Assembly: GCA_030650095.1 (NCBI GenBank)
Contig: JAUSEE010000044.1
Span: 1-51,068 of the forward strand
Reading direction: 5' to 3'
Length of the DNA: 51,068 nucleotides
Origin: Candidatus Buchananbacteria bacterium
GTDB lineage: Bacteria; Patescibacteriota; Patescibacteriia; 2-01-FULL-39-33
Shown: positions 3,825 through 22,051 of the stretch, in pieces
Position numbering within the stretch: the stretch's first letter is position 1
How the letters are laid out: each line of letters opens with the position of its first letter
Notes under the pieces: generated by a model
The model's input: only the letters and a program-made list of their open reading frames with translations
Database searches by the model: none
What the model was told of the DNA's origin: nothing
Program-made: the position numbers and the translations under genes

Positions 3825-5624
3825 ATGACCACCAAAGAGTTAAAAGAAAAATACCTTAATTTTTTCCAAAAGCATGATCATAAGCTTATTTTAGGATCAG
3901 CGCTTTTGCCGGAAAACGATCCGACTGTTTTGTTTACCACCGCCGGCATGCACCCTTTGGTGCCTTATCTTTTGGGTGAAAATCATCCGGCCGGAAAGAG
4001 ATTAACCAATATCCAAAAATGCATCAGAACAGGCGATATTGATGAAGTGGGGGATGATTGGCATCTGACTTTTTTTGAAATGTTAGGCAATTGGTCTTTG
4101 GGTGATTATTTTAAAAAAGAAGCCATCACCCTAAGCTTTGAATTTTTAACCAAGGAACTTAATATCCCCATTGATAAATTGGCCGTGTCTTGTTTTGAAG
4201 GTGAAGAAGCAAACAGCATACTGCAAGACAACGAATCGGCCGAAATTTGGGCCGGATTAGGTTTGCCCAAGGGACGAATTGCTTTTTTGGGCCGGAAAGA
4301 TAATTGGTGGGGTCCGGCCGGACAAACAGGCCCTTGCGGACCGGATACGGAAATGTTTTATTGGGCATCAGATGAGCCGGTGCCGGAAAACTTTGATCCA
4401 GCTAACGACAAAGGCTGGGTGGAAATTTGGAATGATGTTTTTATGCAGTATAACAAAACAGCTGACGGCGCTTACAAAGAACTGGCTCAAAAAAATGTTG
4501 ATACCGGTATGGGTCTGGAGAGGACAGCCGCTGTTTTAAGCGGCTTAAAAAGCGTTTATGATATAGAACCTCTTTCTACTGTTGTTTTGCAGATAACTTC
4601 CTTGGTGCCGGATTTGGAACTCTCTCCGGAATTATCACCCATCCTTGATCTAACCGATCAAGCCGGAGTTGAGCGGGAAAAATCCATCAGGATAATAGCC
4701 GATCATTTGCGTGCCGCTATTTTTATTCTGGCCGAAAAAATCGAGCCCGCCAATGTGGAGCAAGGCTATGTTTTGCGCCGTTTGATCAGACGGGCGATTA
4801 GGCACGGCCAGAAAATAGGCATAACAGAAGATTTTACTCCCCGGGTAGCCGAAGTGGTGATTGATAAGATGGGTGGGTTCTACAAGGAATTAAGGTTGAA
4901 CCGTGATTTTATCATTGATCAATTAATTAAAGAGGAAGAAAAATTCAACACCACTTTGGAAAAAGGCTTGAAGGAGTTTTCCAAATTAACTAAAGACAAG
5001 AAAATATCCGGCCAGGATATGTTCAAGCTTTTTACCACCTACGGCTTCCCTTATGAGACGACGATAGAGCTGGCCCAGGAAAATGGCTTGGAGGTGGACA
5101 CAGAAGAATACCAAAAAGAATTTGCCCAGCATCAGGCTATATCACGCCAAGGCGCCAGCCAAAAATTCAAAGGCGGCTTGGCTGATGATTCCAAGGAAAC
5201 GGCCAGGCTCCACACGGCGGCTCATTTGATGCTCGCCGCTTTGCGTAAAGTTTTGGGCGATCATATTTATCAGAAGGGTTCCAATATTACAGCCGAGAGG
5301 TTAAGGTTTGATTTTTCTCATGCTGAAAAATTAACTGATGAGCAAAAAAAGCAAGTTGAAGATTTGGTTAATCAGCAAATAGTCAGAAATTTGCCGGTTT
5401 CTATAAAAGAAATGACAGTGGAAGAAGCCAAAAAAGAAGGGGCTATGGGTGTTTTTGAAGAAAGATACGGCGAGAAGGTGAAAGTTTACAGTCTGGGTGA
5501 TTTTTCCAAAGAAATCTGCGGCGGTCCGCATGCCCAAAACACGGGTGAACTGGGGCATTTTAAAATACAAAAAGAGGAATCCAGCAGTTCGGGTGTAAGA
5601 AGAATTAAAGCTGTTTTAGAATAA
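3825..5624 (+). CDS. alaS: Alanyl-tRNA synthetase, short form
   Basis: Charges tRNA-Ala with alanine. At 599 residues it keeps the class II catalytic core, the tRNA-recognition helices (motifs such as NVEQGYVLRR) and the editing domain. The editing zinc site is intact: HTAAH begins at H463, and CGGPH spans C565-H569. The protein stops straight after the editing domain, so the C-terminal DHHA1/C-Ala domain of the roughly 875-residue bacterial enzyme is absent. The reading frame ends in a normal stop followed by a terminator, so this is a natural short form rather than a frameshift. A possible promoter is TTGAAA (3775-3780), 17 nt, TAGGAT (3798-3803). Confidence 0.96.
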   Translation: MTTKELKEKYLNFFQKHDHKLILGSALLPENDPTVLFTTAGMHPLVPYLLGENHPAGKRLTNIQKCIRTGDIDEVGDDWHLTFFEMLGNWSLGDYFKKEAITLSFEFLTKELNIPIDKLAVSCFEGEEANSILQDNESAEIWAGLGLPKGRIAFLGRKDNWWGPAGQTGPCGPDTEMFYWASDEPVPENFDPANDKGWVEIWNDVFMQYNKTADGAYKELAQKNVDTGMGLERTAAVLSGLKSVYDIEPLSTVVLQITSLVPDLELSPELSPILDLTDQAGVEREKSIRIIADHLRAAIFILAEKIEPANVEQGYVLRRLIRRAIRHGQKIGITEDFTPRVAEVVIDKMGGFYKELRLNRDFIIDQLIKEEEKFNTTLEKGLKEFSKLTKDKKISGQDMFKLFTTYGFPYETTIELAQENGLEVDTEEYQKEFAQHQAISRQGASQKFKGGLADDSKETARLHTAAHLMLAALRKVLGDHIYQKGSNITAERLRFDFSHAEKLTDEQKKQVEDLVNQQIVRNLPVSIKEMTVEEAKKEGAMGVFEERYGEKVKVYSLGDFSKEICGGPHAQNTGELGHFKIQKEESSSSGVRRIKAVLE

Positions 5625-5647
5625 AATACAAACTTATTCACCTAAAG

Positions 5648-5678
5648 CCGTTAATTAGCTAAAATTAGCGGTTTTTTT
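5648..5678 (+). terminator. Rho-independent terminator after alaS
   Basis: 9-bp stem ccgttaatt/aattagcgg with one G-U pair and a 6-nt loop, then seven T. It insulates the ubiquitin-like cassette from alaS. Confidence 0.85.
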
Positions 5679-5692
5679 GAACTTAAAAAACA

Positions 5693-5721
5693 TTGACAAA
5701 ATGATAATATTTTGGTATTAT
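5693..5721 (+). promoter_or_regulatory. Promoter of the ubiquitin-like cassette
   Basis: Consensus -35 TTGACA (5693-5698), 17-nt spacer, -10 TATTAT (5716-5721). Transcription should begin near 5728, leaving a leader of about 50 nt before the E2-like gene. No operator-like repeat is visible, which suggests constitutive expression. Confidence 0.85.
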
Positions 5722-5777
5722 AGACGGTTGAACTTTGACAACCAAAAAACGGATTAAACTCATAGGGAGACAGCAAG

Positions 5778-8129
5778 ATGAACAATATTAGAGGCGACAG
5801 TTTTTTAGGAAAAACTATCTCTGTAATCATTATTATTTTGGGCGTTATTTTTTCTATTTCCGGCAATTTAGTTTTAACTTCGGGAGCTTTCGTCTTAAAC
5901 GATTTTGTGGACCGGGAGCATCCTCTTTCTGCCGATTGGGATAAAAATGTTAAAGCCGGAGAACCTCCGGCTCTAAAAGTTGAATACGAGCCGTATGAGG
6001 TTAGCCAAGCCAGGTTCTATGATTTTTTTCGCCTGCCTGATTGCTTGAGACTTAATTTATCGTCTTTTAATTTTTTGCTTATAGCCTTATTGTTTGGCCT
6101 GGTTTATTTGTGGTGCTTGAATAGAGGCTTTAAGAATAAAGATGAAGATTCTTCATTCGGAGTTTTTTTATTTTGCACCTCGGCTCTGCCGCAAATTTTA
6201 TTATTTCTCGCTTTGATTGTTTCTACTATATTTTGTTATGACAAGCCGGATCTAAGCACTTTGGGCATTATTGATGCCCAAATGTCTGATAGGGCTCATA
6301 GCTTTCTGTCAAGAGAGGATTTGGCTATTGTAATTGTTACACTAATGGTAATTGTGGTTATTGATTTTGCTGTGGTTTTAGTGGCGTATTTTGTATCTAA
6401 GATTTTTGAAGACATCGCCAAAAAAGTGAAGACCTATATTCTTAACAAGATAACTTTGGGCAACAACACCATGCTGTGTTGTCAAAACGGAGTGGTGGAG
6501 TTTATTTCTATTGATTTTAAATTGAAATGGATTCCTTTCCCCGCCCTATTTTTACAAAGGCGGGTCTTGGCTCGTTTCTCTGGCGGTGATTTTAGTAGTA
6601 ACAGCGATGTCTTTCGCCAGTGGCTGGGTGATCTATCCATTGCCATTGAAGAAGAACAGCTAAGGCAACTGTCCCAGCTCAATATGAACGGCAGTTCGCT
6701 GGTGATTGGTGATGACAACAGTGTTCAGATTATGAGACTGGAGCCGGCTCTGCAGTGGCGCCCATTTCCTCAAACTGTTATTCATCAGGAAATAATCAGG
6801 CGCGTAAGCTTTGATAATTTCTTCCGCTGCTTACTGGCTGATTCCAAGCAAGTGGCCTTGGAGGAACTGAAGCGCCTTCTGGTTGGCTCTTATCAAGAGA
6901 GATTCCAGTCTGTTGGCTATGAGGCTTCACGGTCTTTGATCAGGCATATTTGCGCCAAAACTCTGGCGACTCTAAAACAGTCAACGGCCAAGATTAAAAA
7001 TATTCAAGATAATTCAGTTACACAGAGAATGGCTGAAATGCTTCAGGGATTGACAGATGAAAAACTAACAGCTTTCAAGCAGGAGGTTGTAGCTAGCATC
7101 CAAGAATCATTGCAATTAAGAATCAGCCAAAAAATTAAAGAGCAAATACTTACTCCGCTGCGCGGTATCTTAGCCGAGCAGGTGCCTCTGGTAAACGACA
7201 GAGGCAGTGTTGACGCTTTGCCGGAAGGGACCAAATTTTTCTTTAGCCACGGCGAGACGCAAATTGTAGTGGTCGAGCAAAAACCGCAGATGAGAACTCT
7301 GCATTTTATGGATGAGTTTGTCGGCGGAGACGGTTGTTATAATTTGGCTTTGCCCTATGTTATTTTTGTGATTATCTTTCATGAGGGACAATTTAGATTG
7401 TTATATCTTTACTATGCTAATAAGCCCATGGTTTCACTGGACAGTCAAGTCTTCCACAGCAATTTACCCAATATCCACGGCGGGCATGATGTTTGCCTGG
7501 GATTTAGGGGCTGTCGAGCCACCAGTCTGTCCGGCAAAGTGGAAGAAGTAATAGCCCATTTCTGGCAAAGCCGGTTTAATAATGATTTAAACGATTGGTA
7601 TCGCCATTTTGCTGACCAAGAAAGAGTTTTTAGGAATTTAGCTTCTTGGCAGAAAGCCAGCCAGGACGATCCCTTGTTTGTTTTAAAGGTTAATTGGCCA
7701 TCTTCTAATAGTGATATAGCTCAAAAAATTGCCTACCATATGAATGGTTCAATCACCAGCCGAGTCGTTAATTTTGATCGTTTGATTTCACAAATTTTAC
7801 AATCAGAAGGAGTTAACATCGGCGCTTTGGCTAGGGAATGCTGTGACAGCATTAACCCTAACAATCGTTATCCCAAGAAAGTTTTAAATGCTTTAAAGAA
7901 ACAGATGACATTATTGTCAGATGATATTTGCCAGGCTTTTGAAACCAGGCTGACTGATTTAATAAGTACGCCGGATGAAAAAGATTTGCAAGCAGCTGTT
8001 TCTAGTGCTACCACCCAGGCGGTGGAAGAAACATTTACCACTGATTTTAACAAAATCGCCAACCAAGTTTTACTTCGTCGGCGAATTGATTCCAAAGAAT
8101 TAATTGAACAGATCCTAACCCAACCATAG
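5778..8129 (+). CDS. Membrane-anchored E2-like (UBC-fold) protein, PRTRC-B/Prok-E2_D-like
   Basis: A 783-residue multidomain protein, first gene of the cassette. Residues 12-215 hold about four hydrophobic membrane segments. Residues 230-470 are a soluble, largely helical linker. Residues about 475-640 resemble the E2-like domain of PRTRC system protein B: a strand pair with LPYV, a kP-x-x-SLD stretch, LPN, then the predicted catalytic cysteine C573 in HDVCLG, followed by a helix with FW. No canonical HPN asparagine is seen, as expected for this E2 clade. The last 140 residues are helical. Predicted role: accept the ubiquitin-like protein from the E1-like enzyme as a thioester and transfer it at the membrane. 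The start ATG has agggaga upstream. Family recognition is from motif memory; no profile search was done. Confidence 0.7.
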   Translation: MNNIRGDSFLGKTISVIIIILGVIFSISGNLVLTSGAFVLNDFVDREHPLSADWDKNVKAGEPPALKVEYEPYEVSQARFYDFFRLPDCLRLNLSSFNFLLIALLFGLVYLWCLNRGFKNKDEDSSFGVFLFCTSALPQILLFLALIVSTIFCYDKPDLSTLGIIDAQMSDRAHSFLSREDLAIVIVTLMVIVVIDFAVVLVAYFVSKIFEDIAKKVKTYILNKITLGNNTMLCCQNGVVEFISIDFKLKWIPFPALFLQRRVLARFSGGDFSSNSDVFRQWLGDLSIAIEEEQLRQLSQLNMNGSSLVIGDDNSVQIMRLEPALQWRPFPQTVIHQEIIRRVSFDNFFRCLLADSKQVALEELKRLLVGSYQERFQSVGYEASRSLIRHICAKTLATLKQSTAKIKNIQDNSVTQRMAEMLQGLTDEKLTAFKQEVVASIQESLQLRISQKIKEQILTPLRGILAEQVPLVNDRGSVDALPEGTKFFFSHGETQIVVVEQKPQMRTLHFMDEFVGGDGCYNLALPYVIFVIIFHEGQFRLLYLYYANKPMVSLDSQVFHSNLPNIHGGHDVCLGFRGCRATSLSGKVEEVIAHFWQSRFNNDLNDWYRHFADQERVFRNLASWQKASQDDPLFVLKVNWPSSNSDIAQKIAYHMNGSITSRVVNFDRLISQILQSEGVNIGALARECCDSINPNNRYPKKVLNALKKQMTLLSDDICQAFETRLTDLISTPDEKDLQAAVSSATTQAVEETFTTDFNKIANQVLLRRRIDSKELIEQILTQP

Positions 8130-8145
8130 AAGGAGAACAGCCCAA

Positions 8146-9123
8146 GTGTTTCCGGTATATGTCTTAGAAAAAGGCACCAAGTTGCCTGAAGAGGGGACTT
8201 ATTACATTGTGGCTGGAAACGGCTTGTTCTTGCGCAAAGACACAGGCTTGATACGAGCCACGGTGGCAGTTGAAGGTATTTCTTTTTTGGATAAGATTGA
8301 TCTCTCAGCGCGGCTGCTCTTGCCGAAATTGTCGCAGGAGCTGATTGTCCGCTCCCTCTTGTTTTTTCGGGCGGTGTATAAGAGGTTTCATGGTGAAGCC
8401 GAAGTGCAGATACATTATAGTTCCGCCACGCAAGAATATTTCATTCATTGTCCGAAGCAGAAAGTCAGCGCGGCCGGTGTTGATTACGATTCCAAAGAAA
8501 GGTTTGAGGGTTTCCAACTGGTGGGCACCATTCATTCGCATTGCGGTTTTCTAGCCTTTCATTCTTCCATTGATCACAATGATGAAAAGTATTTTGACGG
8601 TTTGCATATTACCATCGGCCACGTGGATCAGCCCTATTTTACCATTAGCTGTTCTATGATGGTCAATGGCAACAGGTTTACCTTTGAACCGGAAGATGCC
8701 ATCATCGGCATCAAGAAGGTTGAGTGGCAGAAAACGTCTGTCCTAAATCACCGTCGTAAGTCTGTTTCTCATACCCAGACCGGTGGCCAGCCTCTGGAAG
8801 GGAAAAGCTTGATTAGCCGACTGTTTGATTTATCACCTGATAATTATTGGCAGTATGCTCCTGGCCATCAGTATTCAGGCATCACAGTCAAGGCCGATCA
8901 ATTTTGGGATATCGCCATGCCCGAAGGCCAGGATTACCGCCATGTCAGTTTTCCCAAGAGTTGGCTGGAAAGAGTGAGTGAACATATTTATCCTAAAATT
9001 ACTCTTACCAGTACTTATGTTGCCAGTGCACCCGTTGCCAAGGTTCCCGGTTCTATTGTGGCGGCTGACATTGTTTCGTCTCGTCCCGCTGTTGAAGCCG
9101 GCGATCCCTGGGGCGAAGAATAA
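8146..9123 (+). CDS. JAMM/JAB (Mov34/MPN) metalloprotease, predicted deubiquitinase-like
   Basis: Predicted zinc isopeptidase that would mature or remove the ubiquitin-like protein. The JAMM signature is complete: H130-x-H132, seven residues, then S140-x-x-D143, preceded by a glutamate-rich strand. The domain spans about residues 55-195. The C-terminal 130 residues are an unassigned extension rich in aromatics and prolines. I follow the GTG start at 8146, with aggag at 8131-8135. An in-frame ATG further down would remove the first strand. The E2-like gene ends 16 nt upstream and the E1-like gene starts 3 nt downstream, so coupling is tight. PRTRC protein A is a Mov34-type protein in the same kind of cassette. 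Confidence 0.85.
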   Translation: MFPVYVLEKGTKLPEEGTYYIVAGNGLFLRKDTGLIRATVAVEGISFLDKIDLSARLLLPKLSQELIVRSLLFFRAVYKRFHGEAEVQIHYSSATQEYFIHCPKQKVSAAGVDYDSKERFEGFQLVGTIHSHCGFLAFHSSIDHNDEKYFDGLHITIGHVDQPYFTISCSMMVNGNRFTFEPEDAIIGIKKVEWQKTSVLNHRRKSVSHTQTGGQPLEGKSLISRLFDLSPDNYWQYAPGHQYSGITVKADQFWDIAMPEGQDYRHVSFPKSWLERVSEHIYPKITLTSTYVASAPVAKVPGSIVAADIVSSRPAVEAGDPWGEE

Positions 9124-9126
9124 GCC

Positions 9127-9792
9127 ATGAAAATAAAGGTTATCGGCATTGGCGGCATTGGCGGGGCGCTTTTGCCAGCCTTGACAAGATACCTTAATTT
9201 TGCTTATAATGGTTCCGAGATCACACTCATTGATGGCGACAGTTATGAAGAAAGAAATAACCAGCGCCAAGAGTTTGATGAATTGGGCTACAAAGCCGAA
9301 GTTACGGCCGAGCGCCTAAGGCCGTTATTTAACAATTTACTTTTTGTTTTTAAAAACGAGTATGTTACTCCAGGCAATGTCTATGAAATCATCAGGGAGG
9401 ATGACATTGTTCTTATGGGAGTTGACAATCATGCCACTAGGAAATTGGTTTCTGACAGATGCGAGGATATGGAAACTGTAACCTTGATTTCCGGGGGCAA
9501 TGATTTTACGGACGGCAATGTGCAAATGTATATAAGGAAAAACGGCGAGGATATTACCTTGCCGATTGCCAACGATTTTCATCCCGAAATTATGGAGCCG
9601 GCAGACAGAAATCCGGCCGATGTTGGTTGCGGTGAATTAGCTGAAAGCGAACCGCAGTTGGTTATCGCCAACAATGCTATGGCGGCGGTTATGCTCTCTG
9701 CTTTCTACAGCTATTTGCAAGGCAAAGTAACTTACGACGAGATTTATGTTGATATTCTAACTGGTAATTCCCGAGCAGTTAATCGGCGATAG
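9127..9792 (+). CDS. ThiF/E1-like adenylating enzyme
   Basis: Predicted to adenylate the C-terminus of the ubiquitin-like protein and form a thioester. A Rossmann nucleotide-binding loop, GIGGIGG, is at residues 7-13. The acidic strand end D36-G-D38 is followed by the E1-type arginine-bearing ERNNQRQ (42-48), and MGVDN is near residue 98. The predicted catalytic cysteine is C168 in VGCGE, followed by an IANN helix, an arrangement resembling PRTRC ThiF proteins. At 221 residues it is compact, and the paired CxxC zinc sites of ThiF/MoeB are absent. No thiamine or molybdopterin genes lie nearby, which argues against a sulfur-carrier role. Start ATG is 3 nt after the JAB stop. Confidence 0.87.
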   Translation: MKIKVIGIGGIGGALLPALTRYLNFAYNGSEITLIDGDSYEERNNQRQEFDELGYKAEVTAERLRPLFNNLLFVFKNEYVTPGNVYEIIREDDIVLMGVDNHATRKLVSDRCEDMETVTLISGGNDFTDGNVQMYIRKNGEDITLPIANDFHPEIMEPADRNPADVGCGELAESEPQLVIANNAMAAVMLSAFYSYLQGKVTYDEIYVDILTGNSRAVNRR

Positions 9793-9833
9793 ACGCTGAT
9801 TTGCTAAAACCAAAAAAAACAAGGAGAAAGAAC

Positions 9834-10130
9834 GTGTCCAACAACAACGAAACCGCCGTAGCAGAAGATGAAGAAGTGGAATTGGCAGAGGTTGCTCCAG
9901 TTCGAAACGAAGCCACCGGCATTATCACCGTAACGTGCGGCGCCAACGTCAGCACTTTCGGCAATATTAGCGGGCGTAGCATTGGCGCTTTGCGTCAGGA
10001 CTTGGGCGACGTGCTCGGTATTCAGCCAGGTGCCAAGGCGATCGCGTCCGGCGAAGAGGTCAACGATGATTACATCACTGTAGACGGCGACCGCATCGAA
10101 TTCATCAAGGAATCCGGCACGAAGGGCTAA
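9834..10130 (+). CDS. Ubiquitin-like protein (beta-grasp, GTKG tail)
   Basis: Small 98-residue protein, predicted conjugated modifier. The first 28 residues are acidic and probably disordered. Residues 29-98 read as a beta-grasp fold: strand GIITVTCG, helix GALRQDLGDVLG, strands around YITVDGDRIEFI. It ends in GTKG, so a glycine is C-terminal without processing. I recall the same GTKG ending in PRTRC system protein C (Prok_Ub). I chose GTG at 9834 because aaggag (9821-9826) lies 7 nt upstream; a TTG at 9801 would add 11 basic residues and has no such site. The gene is visibly richer in C-ending codons than its neighbours, as in highly expressed or transferred genes. ThiS or MoaD is the alternative, but no partner genes are present. 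Confidence 0.82.
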   Translation: MSNNNETAVAEDEEVELAEVAPVRNEATGIITVTCGANVSTFGNISGRSIGALRQDLGDVLGIQPGAKAIASGEEVNDDYITVDGDRIEFIKESGTKG

Positions 10131-10176
10131 CCCAAAACAAGCAGTACTTTAATTTAAACTTTAACTTAAACACAGG

Positions 10177-10210
10177 CGGGCAGTATAGTAATATATTGCC
10201 CGTTTTTTTT
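10177..10210 (+). terminator. Terminator of the ubiquitin-like cassette
   Basis: 11-bp stem cgggcagtata/tatattgcccg with one G-U pair and a gtaa tetraloop, then eight T. It marks the end of the four-gene unit. Confidence 0.93.
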
Positions 10211-10288
10211 ATTCTTTACATTTTATTATTTATTTGCTAATCTGATTGAGGTTTATTTTATTTTAGCTTAATTTCGGCTTAATTTCTC

Positions 10289-10317
10289 TTGACAGACTGG
10301 TTATTTTGGTATAAGAT
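10289..10317 (+). promoter_or_regulatory. Secondary candidate promoter before infA
   Basis: TTGACA at 10289-10294 with TAAGAT at 10312-10317 (17-nt spacing) or TATAAG at 10310-10315 (15 nt). Weaker than the promoter that follows 38 nt later; together they could be a tandem pair. Confidence 0.45.
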
Positions 10318-10326
10318 GAACTTATA

Positions 10327-10354
10327 TTGACAAATAACCCAAATCTGCTATAAT
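10327..10354 (+). promoter_or_regulatory. Main promoter of the infA-rpsI ribosomal operon
   Basis: Perfect TTGACA (10327-10332), 16-nt spacer, perfect TATAAT (10349-10354). The start is predicted near 10361, giving a leader of about 250 nt. The leader holds a 7-bp hairpin ctaaact/agtttag (10412-10429) and the structured element at 10453-10589. This explains the 400-nt gap between 10211 and infA. Confidence 0.9.
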
Positions 10355-10452
10355 TATCAGAGCAGAAAAAAACCTAAAAATTAGCTTATTTAAGTTTAAA
10401 TTCTGGGCTAGCTAAACTACCTAGTTTAGTTGCCAAGAATTTTATTTTTAAG

Positions 10453-10589
10453 TGTTGTTGGCCGAATACCGCTGGTTTTTATCCAGAGGTATGAAGGCCA
10501 GTGTGAGGAAAATGCTGTCAGCGGAGCTGACTCCTCTCATTTGAATTTGCCCAGATATTGCGGTCTTTGAGACCGCAATCAAATTCATT
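10453..10589 (+). ncRNA. Structured leader element, copy A (covarying with copy B at 31059)
   Basis: A roughly 137-nt element in the infA leader. Predicted stems: ggcc/ggcc closing a first domain; tacc-x-ctgg/ccag-x-ggta; gagg/cctc enclosing gtcagc/gctgac with a gga loop; aatttg/caaatt enclosing attgcggtct/agaccgcaat. Copy B at 31059-31196 keeps the unpaired segments (gttgtt, cagtgtgaggaaaa, cggag, catttgaa, cccagat, ttcatt), while its stems change on both sides. It ends 20 nt before the infA ATG, which lacks an obvious Shine-Dalgarno, so an effect on translation is possible. Alternatives are a regulatory RNA of unknown class or a mobile palindromic element acting as single-stranded DNA. Confidence 0.65.
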
Positions 10590-17308: not shown

Positions 17309-20300
17309 ATGCCAGAAATAAAGCCCAGTCAAATCGAACAGCAAAAAACAGTTATTTCGCCTCATGAAAAGCGCGAGGAGATTTTTGACAGTATTTCCAA
17401 CGTTAGAGATTACGGACAAGCGATAGATGCGACCGAACTGATTTTTGAGCATTCCATTGAAGACGGCCTGAAGCTGTCTGATCGGCTTGGCCTAGGTGAT
17501 GAACAATTAGCGCATATCGCCATGTCGTCGGCTTTTGCTCTCAAGCATCCGGAGGTGTTCAAGTTGATGGTGCGAGAGGCCACAACCAGCCGAGCGCTAA
17601 AAGATATTAGGGATGACAAAAAGCATAAATCTGTTCTTGATTCTATAATGTATACACATGATCAACTTATTACAGCTGAAAAATCAGGCGATTGGAGCGA
17701 GATATCAGATGAAATTGCTCAGCAGAATCCCAAATCATTGTCTGAAGGATTAGGAAAGGAAATAGATAATTATTACGCCCCGCTTCTGACAACTCGCGAA
17801 TTCAAGCCTAGAAATTTACCAAGCGAATATCCAATAGGGGAATCGATTCCCGGAATCCAAGGAGAGAAAAGACAGCTCAAGAGCGCGGAAGAATTAGCCG
17901 ATGAAGCGCTCTTGCAATTGGAGCTGATGATGCAACCGGCCTATTACGCCACAACAATCAATGCGACTCTGGAGAGATATTTAGCAGAAAATAGCCTGTC
18001 GGGCGAGTCGGCTCTCCCCACGGTCGATATTTTTGTCGTGCCCGAACAAATAAAGGCGGAGTGTCGCCGCTTGGGTATTCCATATGGTGATGTGGAAACG
18101 CGCCTGAAGAGCGCCAGATACACCAGCATCACCGCCGGCATCAAAAAAGGGGAAGCCGAGCGCGGCGTGCTAAGTAAATTGAATAAATCGCTCTCGCGCA
18201 AAGGCCAAAAGGCGGAATTGAAGGACGATAGATATGAGGTGGTGGAAGATAAGGAAGGCCGGAAAAAAGAAAAAAAAGAAGAATTTGATTATTGGGATCA
18301 GGAAGAGTTAATAAGTACAGATGAGGTTTCCCGCATAGTTGTAGATGGGGTGGAATTAGCTATGCAATTGGTGGATAATAATCAGAGTTTGGTTTATTAT
18401 ATCTACAAATTGGGCTTTGTTCAGACTGCAATAGTATCTGATAAATTTCCAAATAGTTCAGGTGAAGTTTCAGGCAAAATATTAAAGAGGACAATTGTTC
18501 GTAAAGGCACAAAATTAATTCTTGAATATGAAGATAACGCCATAAAATTAGTTAGAGAGATAGAATTACATCCGGAAGTGATTGATAAGTTTAAACAGGA
18601 ACAAGAAAAAGAGAAATCTGATTATTGGAGTACGAAGGAAGAATTTAATGGAGATGTTAATTTTCCGAAATTAAGAATAAATGGCGTTGATTTAGTAGTC
18701 GTCAAAGGGTTAAATGATAGTAACTCCTGGTATGCCATTGATTATGGCGGACATTTTATCAGAGTTTCAACTCAATTTAATGCAGGAAACATAATTAAAA
18801 AGATATCAAGAAAAGGAGAACTACTTACTAGGCTGGTTGAGATGTCAAATGGCAAAACAATCGATCAGGAAATTCATTTATATGATAGGGAGATTGATGA
18901 GTTTAAAAAAAAGATTGAAAAGGAAAAAGAAGAATCAAAAAATATTGAAGCTGAATTTGTTGAAAAAGGCCTATTGGGTGATATTTATAAATTGGGAGGA
19001 ATTGAAGTTTATTTAATGAAGTCGTCTGGTGGCACTCAACAAATTATTGAACGCCAGAGCGGATTGTATATCACAAAATTTTTTCCGGAGCTTGAAGCAT
19101 TTGATGAAATGTATTATGAAAATGAACATATCATCATAGCGGGTAAGACAAAAAAAGACGGCCAGCCCATTACGCTAAATTTAAAAATTGAAAGCCCCGA
19201 TCCGAATGAAAATATTACCGACAGATTTGTAAAATTAATTGAAGGCGAAAAAGAGGACGAAAAAACAGAAGAAAAAGAATTTGATTTTGACAAATTCGAG
19301 GACAAAGCGCTGGATTATATTGAAAAATTTATTGATGAAAGTGAAGACGCGTGGTATATAGCGAAAGGATTAGCTGGTCTAGATAGCGACCGCGCCTGGA
19401 AGTTGCGCGATAAGTTGCTTGAAATGGGTGTAGATATTAGAGATATTGTTGAGGGCATCGCTGGTCTGGACAGCGACCAGGCTTGGAAGTTGCGCGATAA
19501 GTTGTTGTTTAGAAGTAGTACGAGTGATGGTATTGTTGCTATTAGTCTGGCTGGTCTGGACAGCGACCAGGCTTGGAAGTTGCGCGAACAGTTATTTAAA
19601 AAAGGTGAAAAAGGATCTATCACTCTTAGTTTATCCGGTCTAGACAGTGATCGCGCTTGGAAAATGCGCGAGAAGTTGATTCAAGATAATGTGAACCATG
19701 GTGATTTCGCAGCAGGCCTAGCCGGTCTGGACTCAGAGCGCGCCTGGCAAATGCGCGAGAGACTGTTTAAAAATATTAATACTTTCAACAATATTGCTGA
19801 AAGTCTAGCCGGTCTGGACTCAGATCGTGCCTGGCAAATGCGAGATCAATTATTTAAAAAAGGTGAAAAAGGATCTATCGCTCTTAGTTTATCTGGTCTG
19901 GATAGCGATCGTGCTTGGAAAATGCGCGATAAGGTATTTGAAGCGGGTGAAGATAAAAGTGGTGTCGCTCTTAGTTTAGCCGGTTTAGACTCGGATCGCG
20001 CTTGGAAAATGCGCGAGCAGTTGTTTAAAGAGAGAGAAGTGAGGTATGTTGCTCATAGTTTAGCCGGGGATAATGTCACCTTTGTCTGGCAATTGAAACT
20101 TGACAAGAAGAAAAAACAAGCTGCAAAACTAAATAAAGAAGAGCAAGAAAAACTTAAGTTGTTGAATCTATTGCATAGTCCCGATCTTCCTGGAATTACC
20201 GAGCACTTCAGCGAAGAATTGAGCGCGGAAGAGAAAGCCAAGAAAGAAAAAACAGTCAAGAAAAAAACTCTAAGCGGTTCAGCCTTGTTTTCCGGCATTA

Positions 20301-22051
20301 TTAATAAATTGATCAAGAAAAATCCTCAGCCGTTTCTGGAGACTATGCCGGCCAAGCGCGACCGCCTGCCTTATGTTTTTGCAGAGCAGTTGGCTTTTAG
20401 GATTTTTCCCGAAATAAAAAGAGAGCAAGAAAGAAACGCTTGGCGCGGATTTGCCGGCTATGGGGGATTGGAAGGCCCAGGGCCGGAAGGGCCGGCAGGT
20501 GGACCGGAAGATTATCTTAATCCATCAAGCGGGATGGAAATGATCGGGGGCGGGGCGGAAGACATGGATGATAATCGGGAAGTGATGGAATTTCGCGACG
20601 CCTTAGGGCAACTTATTGTCACTAATATCTTGGGCAAGTATGATGCCTCGTCCAGGCGCTGGCTGTCCACGGATTTTGCCGTTGATGCGCCGCTGTCTGA
20701 ACCCACTATCGAAACCACGGCGACTTTGCCTAATATCAAGAATTTGTCTCAAGTGTCTCTGCCTAAGCCCTTGGAGTCAAATATTATCCCAGAACGGGTA
20801 AAAGGCCTTGATGCCAAGGGCAAAGAGTATGATTTGAAGGCCAGCGTTAGCAGTTCAGGAGAAGCCAGGGTGGCGGAAAAGCCGAAAGCGGTGGAAAAAA
20901 TCGTTTATTCTTTGGCGGTCTCTGCCGCTCCGGCGCCCATGGCGGAAATCAGCGGCAACGATTATGAAAGATTCAAGCATAAATTGGAATCAGTCGGCGG
21001 CGGGGATTTAACCAGTTCGCTAGCCAGTTTGCCCGAGGATTTGGAATTGGATCTTTTGGCGGCTATAAAAGACAAGGAACCAAAAGATCAAGTGACGGCG
21101 ATTGAGCGCTTGGTGCGCGATTTGGGGCATTATGATTTTAACAATCAGGAAGTCAGCCGGTTGAAAGCCGGCAAACCGCTGGAAGAGCAACTATATATCA
21201 TGGAACAGCGTTTGGAAGAACTTAAATCAAATAAGCCAGGCTCGGCAGAAAAATTAAAAGGCAAGAGATTTGCTGGTGTCTGCGCCGATTTTGCGCAGAT
21301 AACTGCGATTTTGCTACGCCGCGCCGGTTTTGCTTCCGGCATAGTCGCCGGTTTCAGCGGAGTTGGCAAGAAAATCGCGGTCAAACACGCGCATGCTACT
21401 TCTTTTGTCGTCTGGCCAGATGAAACCGGCAAGAATAGAGCCATTAGTATCGATGGCACGCCCGACGGAGTTGTCGGCATATCCTTGCCATCACTAGTGG
21501 AAAGAGAACAAGAAGCGGAACGGCAAGAAAAAGAAATGTCAAAAACCGCTCTGGCTGAAATAGAAAGCATCATCTCCGGCTTGAAAAACCAGGATACTGA
21601 AACTGTCCGCCGGATGTCCAATGGCGAATTGGAGCGTATAGTTAATAATATTTTAAAATACCAAGTTAAAGAATCGCATTTGGCGATAATTGAGCGTCTT
21701 TTTGAACATTATTTGTATACGCCGGTTCATAATTTGGATTTAAATAATCCTAAACAAAAGGGCGAAATACTAGTAGAGTTAGCTGGCGCGGTGGAAAGGC
21801 AAAGGAAACGCTTAAAAGAAGAGCCGGAAAAAGATACTACCCCGGCCGGCAACAGGCTCATGCAAATGATGCAGGATTTCTTGCGCCGATTTTCCGCGGA
21901 TGAAGATGCTGAAAGCAAGGATGATGCTTTTGCTGTTATGGAAAAAATAGTGGAACTGGTTCAGAATGATTTAAACGAAGTGGAACAAAAATCAGCCTTT
22001 GCCGTCTTGGCTTACTTGAAAGCCAAAAATATATCGGGCAATAAAAAGTAA
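17309..22051 (+). CDS. 1580-residue repeat protein with C-terminal transglutaminase-like domain
   Basis: No signal peptide or membrane segment. Residues 1-290 are helical. About 320-650 hold three diverged copies of a roughly 105-residue beta-rich module, each ending in an acidic/basic helix (for example EVIDKFKQEQEKEK). Residues about 686-920 contain eight 28-30-residue repeats with consensus GLDSDRAWKMR, plus a degraded ninth. A Pro/Gly-rich linker (EGPGPEGPAGGP) follows. A transglutaminase-like papain fold sits near 1315-1390, with candidate triad C1325 (GVCADF), H1362 and D1382 (SIDGTP). The remainder is helical. It sits between a flippase and glycosyltransferases, so a cell-surface or glycan link is possible, but without a secretion signal this is uncertain. 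Enzymatic activity is unproven. Confidence 0.75.
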   Translation: MPEIKPSQIEQQKTVISPHEKREEIFDSISNVRDYGQAIDATELIFEHSIEDGLKLSDRLGLGDEQLAHIAMSSAFALKHPEVFKLMVREATTSRALKDIRDDKKHKSVLDSIMYTHDQLITAEKSGDWSEISDEIAQQNPKSLSEGLGKEIDNYYAPLLTTREFKPRNLPSEYPIGESIPGIQGEKRQLKSAEELADEALLQLELMMQPAYYATTINATLERYLAENSLSGESALPTVDIFVVPEQIKAECRRLGIPYGDVETRLKSARYTSITAGIKKGEAERGVLSKLNKSLSRKGQKAELKDDRYEVVEDKEGRKKEKKEEFDYWDQEELISTDEVSRIVVDGVELAMQLVDNNQSLVYYIYKLGFVQTAIVSDKFPNSSGEVSGKILKRTIVRKGTKLILEYEDNAIKLVREIELHPEVIDKFKQEQEKEKSDYWSTKEEFNGDVNFPKLRINGVDLVVVKGLNDSNSWYAIDYGGHFIRVSTQFNAGNIIKKISRKGELLTRLVEMSNGKTIDQEIHLYDREIDEFKKKIEKEKEESKNIEAEFVEKGLLGDIYKLGGIEVYLMKSSGGTQQIIERQSGLYITKFFPELEAFDEMYYENEHIIIAGKTKKDGQPITLNLKIESPDPNENITDRFVKLIEGEKEDEKTEEKEFDFDKFEDKALDYIEKFIDESEDAWYIAKGLAGLDSDRAWKLRDKLLEMGVDIRDIVEGIAGLDSDQAWKLRDKLLFRSSTSDGIVAISLAGLDSDQAWKLREQLFKKGEKGSITLSLSGLDSDRAWKMREKLIQDNVNHGDFAAGLAGLDSERAWQMRERLFKNINTFNNIAESLAGLDSDRAWQMRDQLFKKGEKGSIALSLSGLDSDRAWKMRDKVFEAGEDKSGVALSLAGLDSDRAWKMREQLFKEREVRYVAHSLAGDNVTFVWQLKLDKKKKQAAKLNKEEQEKLKLLNLLHSPDLPGITEHFSEELSAEEKAKKEKTVKKKTLSGSALFSGIINKLIKKNPQPFLETMPAKRDRLPYVFAEQLAFRIFPEIKREQERNAWRGFAGYGGLEGPGPEGPAGGPEDYLNPSSGMEMIGGGAEDMDDNREVMEFRDALGQLIVTNILGKYDASSRRWLSTDFAVDAPLSEPTIETTATLPNIKNLSQVSLPKPLESNIIPERVKGLDAKGKEYDLKASVSSSGEARVAEKPKAVEKIVYSLAVSAAPAPMAEISGNDYERFKHKLESVGGGDLTSSLASLPEDLELDLLAAIKDKEPKDQVTAIERLVRDLGHYDFNNQEVSRLKAGKPLEEQLYIMEQRLEELKSNKPGSAEKLKGKRFAGVCADFAQITAILLRRAGFASGIVAGFSGVGKKIAVKHAHATSFVVWPDETGKNRAISIDGTPDGVVGISLPSLVEREQEAERQEKEMSKTALAEIESIISGLKNQDTETVRRMSNGELERIVNNILKYQVKESHLAIIERLFEHYLYTPVHNLDLNNPKQKGEILVELAGAVERQRKRLKEEPEKDTTPAGNRLMQMMQDFLRRFSADEDAESKDDAFAVMEKIVELVQNDLNEVEQKSAFAVLAYLKAKNISGNKK
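19367..20070 (+). repeat. Tandem GLDSDRAW repeats inside the 1580-residue gene
   Basis: Eight in-frame units of about 84-90 bp, each encoding GLDS(D/E)(R/Q)AW(K/Q)(L/M)R followed by a variable helix. The block at 19588-19675 and that at 19851-19935 are nearly identical at the DNA level, which indicates a recent multi-unit duplication or conversion. Confidence 0.9.

Follow-up and report, generated by a model that had tools for sequence, protein, structure and literature searches.

A ubiquitin-like protein with a G-T-K-G end and its predicted four-gene conjugation cassette in a Buchananbacteria genome

What is the role of a JAB protease encoded beside a ubiquitin-like protein (Ubl) whose C-terminus is already a free glycine? 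The question is raised by the open reading frame at positions 9834–10130 of a 51,068-nucleotide stretch of DNA (hereafter the window; contig JAUSEE010000044.1) from Candidatus Buchananbacteria bacterium, the genome of which comprises 1.16 Mb on 62 contigs and is 98% complete. The reading frame is a real gene. The original prediction was that the free glycine leaves the JAB protein a role in deconjugation, that the preference of the gene for C-ending codons reflects high expression or recent transfer, and that an acidic N-terminal extension lies outside the beta-grasp core.

The cassette and its components

The Ubl gene is the last of four genes (E2-like protein, JAB/JAMM peptidase, E1-like protein, Ubl; 5778–10130). 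The cassette has its own promoter and its own terminator, and its flanks are housekeeping genes (alaS on one side, the infA–rpsM operon on the other).

5624–10204, no strand: segment inserted between alaS and infA as compared with congener G001, from comparison of the homologous flanks
5693–5721, + strand: predicted cassette promoter of the sigma-70 type (TTGACA-17-TATTAT, 11 of 12 matches, the second hexamer being preceded by TG), within the inserted segment and 3' of alaS
5778–8129, + strand: E2-like protein, 783 aa, with four predicted N-terminal transmembrane (TM) helices, a helical linker, an E2/UBC-fold domain and a helical C-terminus
7494–7496, + strand: C573, predicted to be the catalytic cysteine of the E2 domain; present in each of 32 homologues and in 64 of 67 of a larger set
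8146–9123, + strand: JAB/JAMM metallopeptidase, 325 aa (PRTRC_A, 7.4e-10), with conserved E84, H130, H132, S140 and D143
8533–8574, + strand: JAMM motif HSHCGFLAFHSSID, aa 130–143
9127–9792, + strand: E1-like (ThiF-fold) activating enzyme, 221 aa (ThiF, 1e-17; PRTRC_ThiF, 1.4e-15)
9628–9630, + strand: predicted catalytic cysteine C168 of E1
9821–9826, + strand: AAGGAG, ribosome-binding site for Ubl, read from the sequence, 7 nt 5' of the GTG start
9834–10130, + strand: Ubl, 98 aa, GTG start, from the reading frame, the homologue alignment and the structure model
9834–9920, + strand: acidic N-terminal extension of Ubl, aa 1–29, predicted disordered and not conserved
9921–10106, + strand: beta-grasp core of Ubl, aa 30–91, from pLDDT and structural matches
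10116–10127, + strand: C-terminal G-T-K-G of Ubl, aa 95–98, the family motif G-x-K-G
10174–10205, + strand: predicted intrinsic terminator closing the cassette

A perfect sigma-70-like consensus (TTGACA-18-TATAAT) is also present at 9181–9210, inside the E1 gene; it could add transcription of Ubl, or it may be due to chance.

In an AlphaFold2 model built on 49 sequences, residues 30–91 of Ubl have pLDDT values above 90 and form a ubiquitin-like beta-beta-alpha-beta-beta core with a floppy C-terminal tail. Residues 1–29 (eight Asp/Glu, one Lys/Arg) have a pLDDT of about 65 and vary among homologues, so that the acidic extension indeed lies outside the core, as predicted. The best structural matches (Foldseek, VIA-align) are ubiquitin, NEDD8, Caldiarchaeum ubiquitin (6fj7), MoaD and TtuB. 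At the sequence level, the window Ubl has no meaningful match in Pfam; the ThiS profile matches 15 of 49 family members, and Prok_Ub (PF14454) matches none of the 49; PRTRC C of Methylomonas matches it at 2e-10. As a lone query, Ubl gave two weak matches besides its own genome (57 searched), and nothing among PDB sequences; the homologue search was therefore driven by E1. Elsewhere in the family, four Ubls (L081, L092, L100 and L062) have N-terminal extensions resembling a SAP/HeH-type helical motif, in contrast to the acidic, disordered extension of the window Ubl, and locus L030 encodes a tandem Ubl.

E1 is a single-domain protein of the ThiF/MoeB type. Its GxGGxG and DGD..E..N..R motifs and residues K56, D100 and R105 are conserved, and C168 is present in 87 of 87 homologues; it thus has the glycine-rich motif, nucleotide-site Arg and Lys, acidic metal ligand and transfer cysteine of ThiF/E1-like enzymes. 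A rhodanese domain was not found on E1 by profile search. The JAB protein retains the E...H-x-H-x7-S-x2-D metal site of JAMM peptidases, with E84 in 77 of 78 homologues and H130, H132, S140 and D143 in all 78. Measured against curated cut-offs, the cassette enzymes score 38.7 of 101.8 bits with PRTRC A, 14.5 of 131.5 with PRTRC B and 57.3 of 144.8 with PRTRC ThiF, and only the general ThiF match to E1 lies above its cut-off. By these scores, the enzymes are related to PRTRC proteins without being members.

The E2-like protein matches Prok-E2_D (9.8e-5) and PRTRC_B (0.017), both below cut-off. Its model is confident mainly over residues ∼480–650, where the domain reaches a pLDDT of ∼95. Foldseek with the whole 783-residue model gave nothing significant; on re-alignment with VIA, residues ∼472–640 align to dozens of eukaryotic E2s (Z of 5–6), with an E2/UBC fold around the near-invariant C573. 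The N-terminal part has no informative structural match, which does not in itself indicate a new fold. A hydropathy scan places TM helices at residues ∼14–32, 96–114, 129–147 and 184–202, in a low-confidence region of the model, which suggests a cytoplasmic E2 domain tethered to the membrane by four helices. Four TM segments are also predicted on the E2s of Parcubacteria L029, Vogelbacteria L036 and Falkowbacteria L068; in the same scan, the other collected E2s have at most one borderline hydrophobic segment, located inside the E2 domain. A membrane-bound bacterial E2, if true, would add a new architecture to protein tagging in bacteria.

We consider it likely that Ubl serves as the modifier in a minimal bacterial cycle of ubiquitin-like conjugation, the genes of which are transcribed in the order E2–JAB–E1–Ubl. 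E1 would adenylate the C-terminal glycine of Ubl and load the protein on C168, from where it would be passed to C573 of E2, which its four TM helices would anchor in the cytoplasmic membrane. E2 would attach Ubl to amines of nearby targets, a separate E3 being absent from the unit, and the JAB protein would reverse the attachment by cleaving the isopeptide bond. Such a cassette represents a minimal E1/E2/Ubl/JAB set for reconstitution. A wider reading is possible but less likely than not: a membrane-tethered system in which the four-helix E2 modifies membrane or envelope proteins, with Ubl made in mature form, a lineage-wide preference for C-ending codons in its gene and E1/JAB systems at two other loci of the genome.

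C-terminal tails and the role of the JAB protein

The window Ubl ends in ...IEFIKESGTKG, with nothing beyond the final glycine. Alignment of the C-terminal four residues shows that G-x-K-G, with minor variation in positions one and three, ends the Ubl domain in 52 of the 57 homologues with a readable end; four of the remaining domains end in KA and one in KL. Residues follow the motif in 36 of the 57 Ubls, comprising 1–29 residues and, in a Gemmatimonadetes locus (L077), a Ubl–E2 fusion of 329 residues. Homologues without a terminal glycine therefore exist, by virtue of tails as well as of the KA and KL ends, and the family as such is not refuted by them.

The tails vary by lineage in sequence (QAI, LGA, CLAA and RPQ), a pattern like that of propeptides. 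They are usual in Chloroflexi, Lentisphaerae and most NC10, and missing in 13 of 16 Patescibacteria, the window included. A Rubrobacter plasmid encodes a single protein in which a probable Ubl with KKG is followed by JAB, and both this fusion and the Ubl–E2 fusion would need cleavage directly after KG. In Caldiarchaeum, a JAMM protease matures pro-ubiquitin, and E1 activates the trimmed form only (PMC5654768). Given the residues that follow G-x-K-G in so many homologues, the JAB protein probably also matures the tailed Ubls of other family members.

Every tail-less patescibacterial locus has kept its JAB gene, and the complete JAB proteins of these loci retain the JAMM motif (one JAB is truncated where its contig ends). 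As the window Ubl needs no maturation and the active site of its JAB protein is retained, we infer that this protein probably acts as a deconjugase in the window organism. The predicted link between a free glycine and deconjugation thus holds for the window genome, but most of the family relies on a Ubl precursor.

The KA ends of Uhrbacteria Ubls fall on at least two branches of E1. By analogy with the G76A mutant of ubiquitin, such ends may slow deconjugation. Together, the loss of the tail with retention of JAB and the change of the terminal Gly to Ala in Uhrbacteria provide a natural contrast of matured and ready-made Ubls, with which two roles of JAMM proteases could be separated experimentally.

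Codon usage and gain of the cassette

Both the preference for C-ending codons and the higher GC content relative to the neighbours are real. The Ubl gene has a GC of 0.55, a GC3 of 0.64 and a third-position C/(C+T) of 0.71. When the other window genes are cut into slices of 98 codons, the corresponding values are 0.40, 0.41 and 0.41, and not one of the 987 slices is as high as Ubl in GC3 or in C/(C+T). The same trend is found in 16 of 17 patescibacterial-type loci, where Ubl exceeds its own E1, JAB and E2 genes (Wilcoxon p = 3e-5, an optimistic value because the loci are related) and, again in 16 of 17, the surrounding reading frames.

Neither of the causes offered by the original prediction accounts for this bias. 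Adaptation to high expression was rejected, since ribosomal genes with rpoA average a C/(C+T) of 0.40 and EF-Tu also has 0.40, equal to the genome average; in three further genomes (G349, G282 and G311), EF-Tu has 0.25–0.37 versus 0.73–0.77 for Ubl. A recent lone transfer was likewise rejected, because a bias that affects Ubl alone and is shared by 16 of 17 loci is not a transfer signature. We also rejected mRNA structure as a cause, the folding being ordinary (z = 0.74 by both shuffles).

What does stand of the predicted transfer is the gain of the cassette as a whole. E1 and Ubl were not found in any of nine same-genus or same-family genomes, all of which have alaS and rpsM, in most cases near each other. 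The counterparts of window positions 5369–5623 and 10205–10448 lie ∼120 bp from each other in G001, indicating an insertion of ∼4.58 kb that consists of the cassette together with both its promoter and its terminator. No integrase or transposase was found within the inserted segment. This comparison shows that the cassette was acquired in its entirety relative to the congeners. Between its terminator and infA, at 10449–10588, lies an interspersed MITE- or REP-like repeat of ∼116–140 bp (∼26 genomic copies, 74–80% identity), which is absent from the corresponding site in G001.

Within the class, E1 is sporadic (10 of 380 genomes). A single-sequence contig scan with E1 gave no matches; a profile scan gave 154 relatives, the best 80 of which occur in Methylomirabilota, Deltaproteobacteria, Planctomycetota, Chloroflexi, Lentisphaerae, Acidobacteria and two archaeal bins. 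In an E1 tree calculated with a quick method, the window falls within an eight-row group of patescibacterial and a few other rows (SH-aLRT 97), and Patescibacteria overall are scattered, which is the pattern expected for mobile cassettes. Complete, sporadically gained ubiquitin-like conjugation cassettes would be present in bacteria whose genomes are among the smallest. Nine deltaproteobacterial loci (L033, L043, L046, L048, L054, L057 and L063–L065) have a closely related E1, and most of them JAB; E2 and Ubl were not found there by profiles, and these loci have either divergent partners or a reduced system.

Relation to known systems and rival explanations

Operon type 6d of Iyer et al. 2006, predicted from sequence analysis, comprises Ubl, JAB, E1-like and E2-like proteins (PMC1779556), and the plasmid PRTRC cassette is its best-annotated form. 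The window cassette shares all four components; its E1 and JAB match PRTRC models and its E2 weakly matches Prok-E2_D. As in type 6d, the Ubl is small with a conserved C-terminal glycine, followed by further residues in many homologues, and the E2 has a conserved cysteine predicted to be catalytic; PRTRC C of Methylomonas also ends in TKG. However, the absolutely conserved His downstream of the type 6d E2 cysteine is not among the invariant or near-invariant columns, and the FWxSxFN region has N/D. Whereas type 6d JAB proteins have a strictly conserved Arg and Trp in the N-terminal domain, no R or W occurs in the JAB columns with at least 90% conservation, and a gene for the extra alpha-helical protein is absent between alaS and infA, helical regions flanking the E2 domain instead. 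Unlike in PRTRC, ParB is absent from the unit and detected only on another contig, below cut-off, and the Ubl is ThiS-like and not PF14454. The window cassette further differs from both in the four predicted TM helices of its E2 and in being chromosomal. Judged by these features, the general kind (type 6d, PRTRC-like) is already known, and the window branch fails several defining features of both. New in this branch would be the predicted membrane E2, the ThiS-like G-x-K-G modifier and the tail-less patescibacterial form. In the open-access literature, we found no report of the cassette in Patescibacteria and no experimental work on this branch, a scope that makes this weak evidence of absence.

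In type II CBASS, Cap2 and Cap3 provide E1 activity together with a JAB protease by which conjugation is undone; unlike these systems, the window has no CD-NTase, its E2 and E1 are separate proteins and the Ubl is encoded in the unit. The ubiquitin operon of Caldiarchaeum subterraneum (PMC5654768) also combines Ubl, E1, E2 and the pro-ubiquitin-maturing JAMM protease, but differs in its RING E3, its eukaryote-like E1 and a ubiquitin with a GG end and a nine-residue tail. The antiviral BilABCD system likewise has Ubl, E1, E2 and JAB in one operon, with a tandem Ubl (BilA), a larger pseudodimeric E1 (BilD) and a CEHH motif in BilB (PMC11354881); the window has a single Ubl, an E1 of 221 residues, no CEHH around C573 and no meaningful PADLOC match.

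An anti-phage or anti-mobile-element system of the Bil or CBASS Cap2–Cap3 kind, with Ubl put on phage or effector proteins, would be compatible with the conjugation chemistry proposed above and differ in purpose. The sporadic presence of E1, the clean insertion and an enzyme set identical to that of Bil (PMC11354881) agree with it. We nevertheless regard it as unlikely, given that the PADLOC defence library yields a weak similarity to E1 and nothing else, and that no defence gene or nucleotidyltransferase adjoins the cassette between its housekeeping flanks. That the JAB protein solely matures Ubl, as an ancestral role, and is here a relic or has another substrate, so that conjugation is not reversed, would suit the tails of most homologues outside Patescibacteria. 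It is rather improbable, for a relic would be expected to decay, and the JAMM residues of tail-less patescibacterial loci are intact.

Ubl shares its fold and weak profile matches with the sulfur carriers ThiS, MoaD and TtuB. Adenylation by E1 could accordingly serve thiocarboxylation, with JAB releasing or trimming the carrier, and the ThiS matches, the structural matches to MoaD and TtuB and the ThiF/MoeB type of E1 all fit this pathway. Sulfur pathways are not known to use an E2, yet the unit encodes an E2-fold protein with a near-invariant cysteine next to JAB; the Ubl terminus is KG and not GG, no match to ThiS or MoaD was found in the genome, and E1 lacks a detectable rhodanese domain. 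We consider the sulfur pathway improbable for these reasons. The GC3 of the Ubl gene, finally, could be taken as a sign that the gene was recently transferred on its own or is codon-adapted for very high expression; this is highly improbable, as the bias recurs among patescibacterial-type loci whose Ubls share little sequence, and is missing from ribosomal genes and EF-Tu, with mRNA folding offering no explanation.

Two more E1-like loci are present in the same genome (G000), on contigs C11 and C25; components without profile matches were named by motifs alone. The C11 locus (L164:5382-9973, − strand), which looks complete, has the gene order of the window cassette and encodes a 785-residue E2-like protein with a C-terminal E2-like motif (HPHV...C), a JAMM protein, an E1 (ThiF, 3e-23) and a 189-residue tandem Ubl without a terminal glycine. 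A related E1 occurs in 18 of 380 class genomes, including congener G002, where the matched stretch contains one stop codon. The C25 locus (L165:2069-18763, + strand) encodes an Hsp70-like ATPase, two isochorismatase/nicotinamidase-like proteins, an E2-like protein, a JAMM protein, a 572-residue E1-like protein and a Clp-type AAA protein; genes downstream read as ADP-ribosylglycohydrolase, NadD-like, Nudix, NAPRT and NAD kinase. A link of ubiquitin-like modification, unfolding and NAD metabolism is possible at this locus, and an E1 related to that of C25 is found in only 4 of 380 class genomes.

Within the window itself, positions 17309–22051 encode a protein of 1580 residues with approximately ten copies of the short repeat (A)GLDSD(R/Q)AW(K/Q)(M/L)R(D/E)(K/Q)L and a putative transglutaminase-like stretch near its C-terminus.
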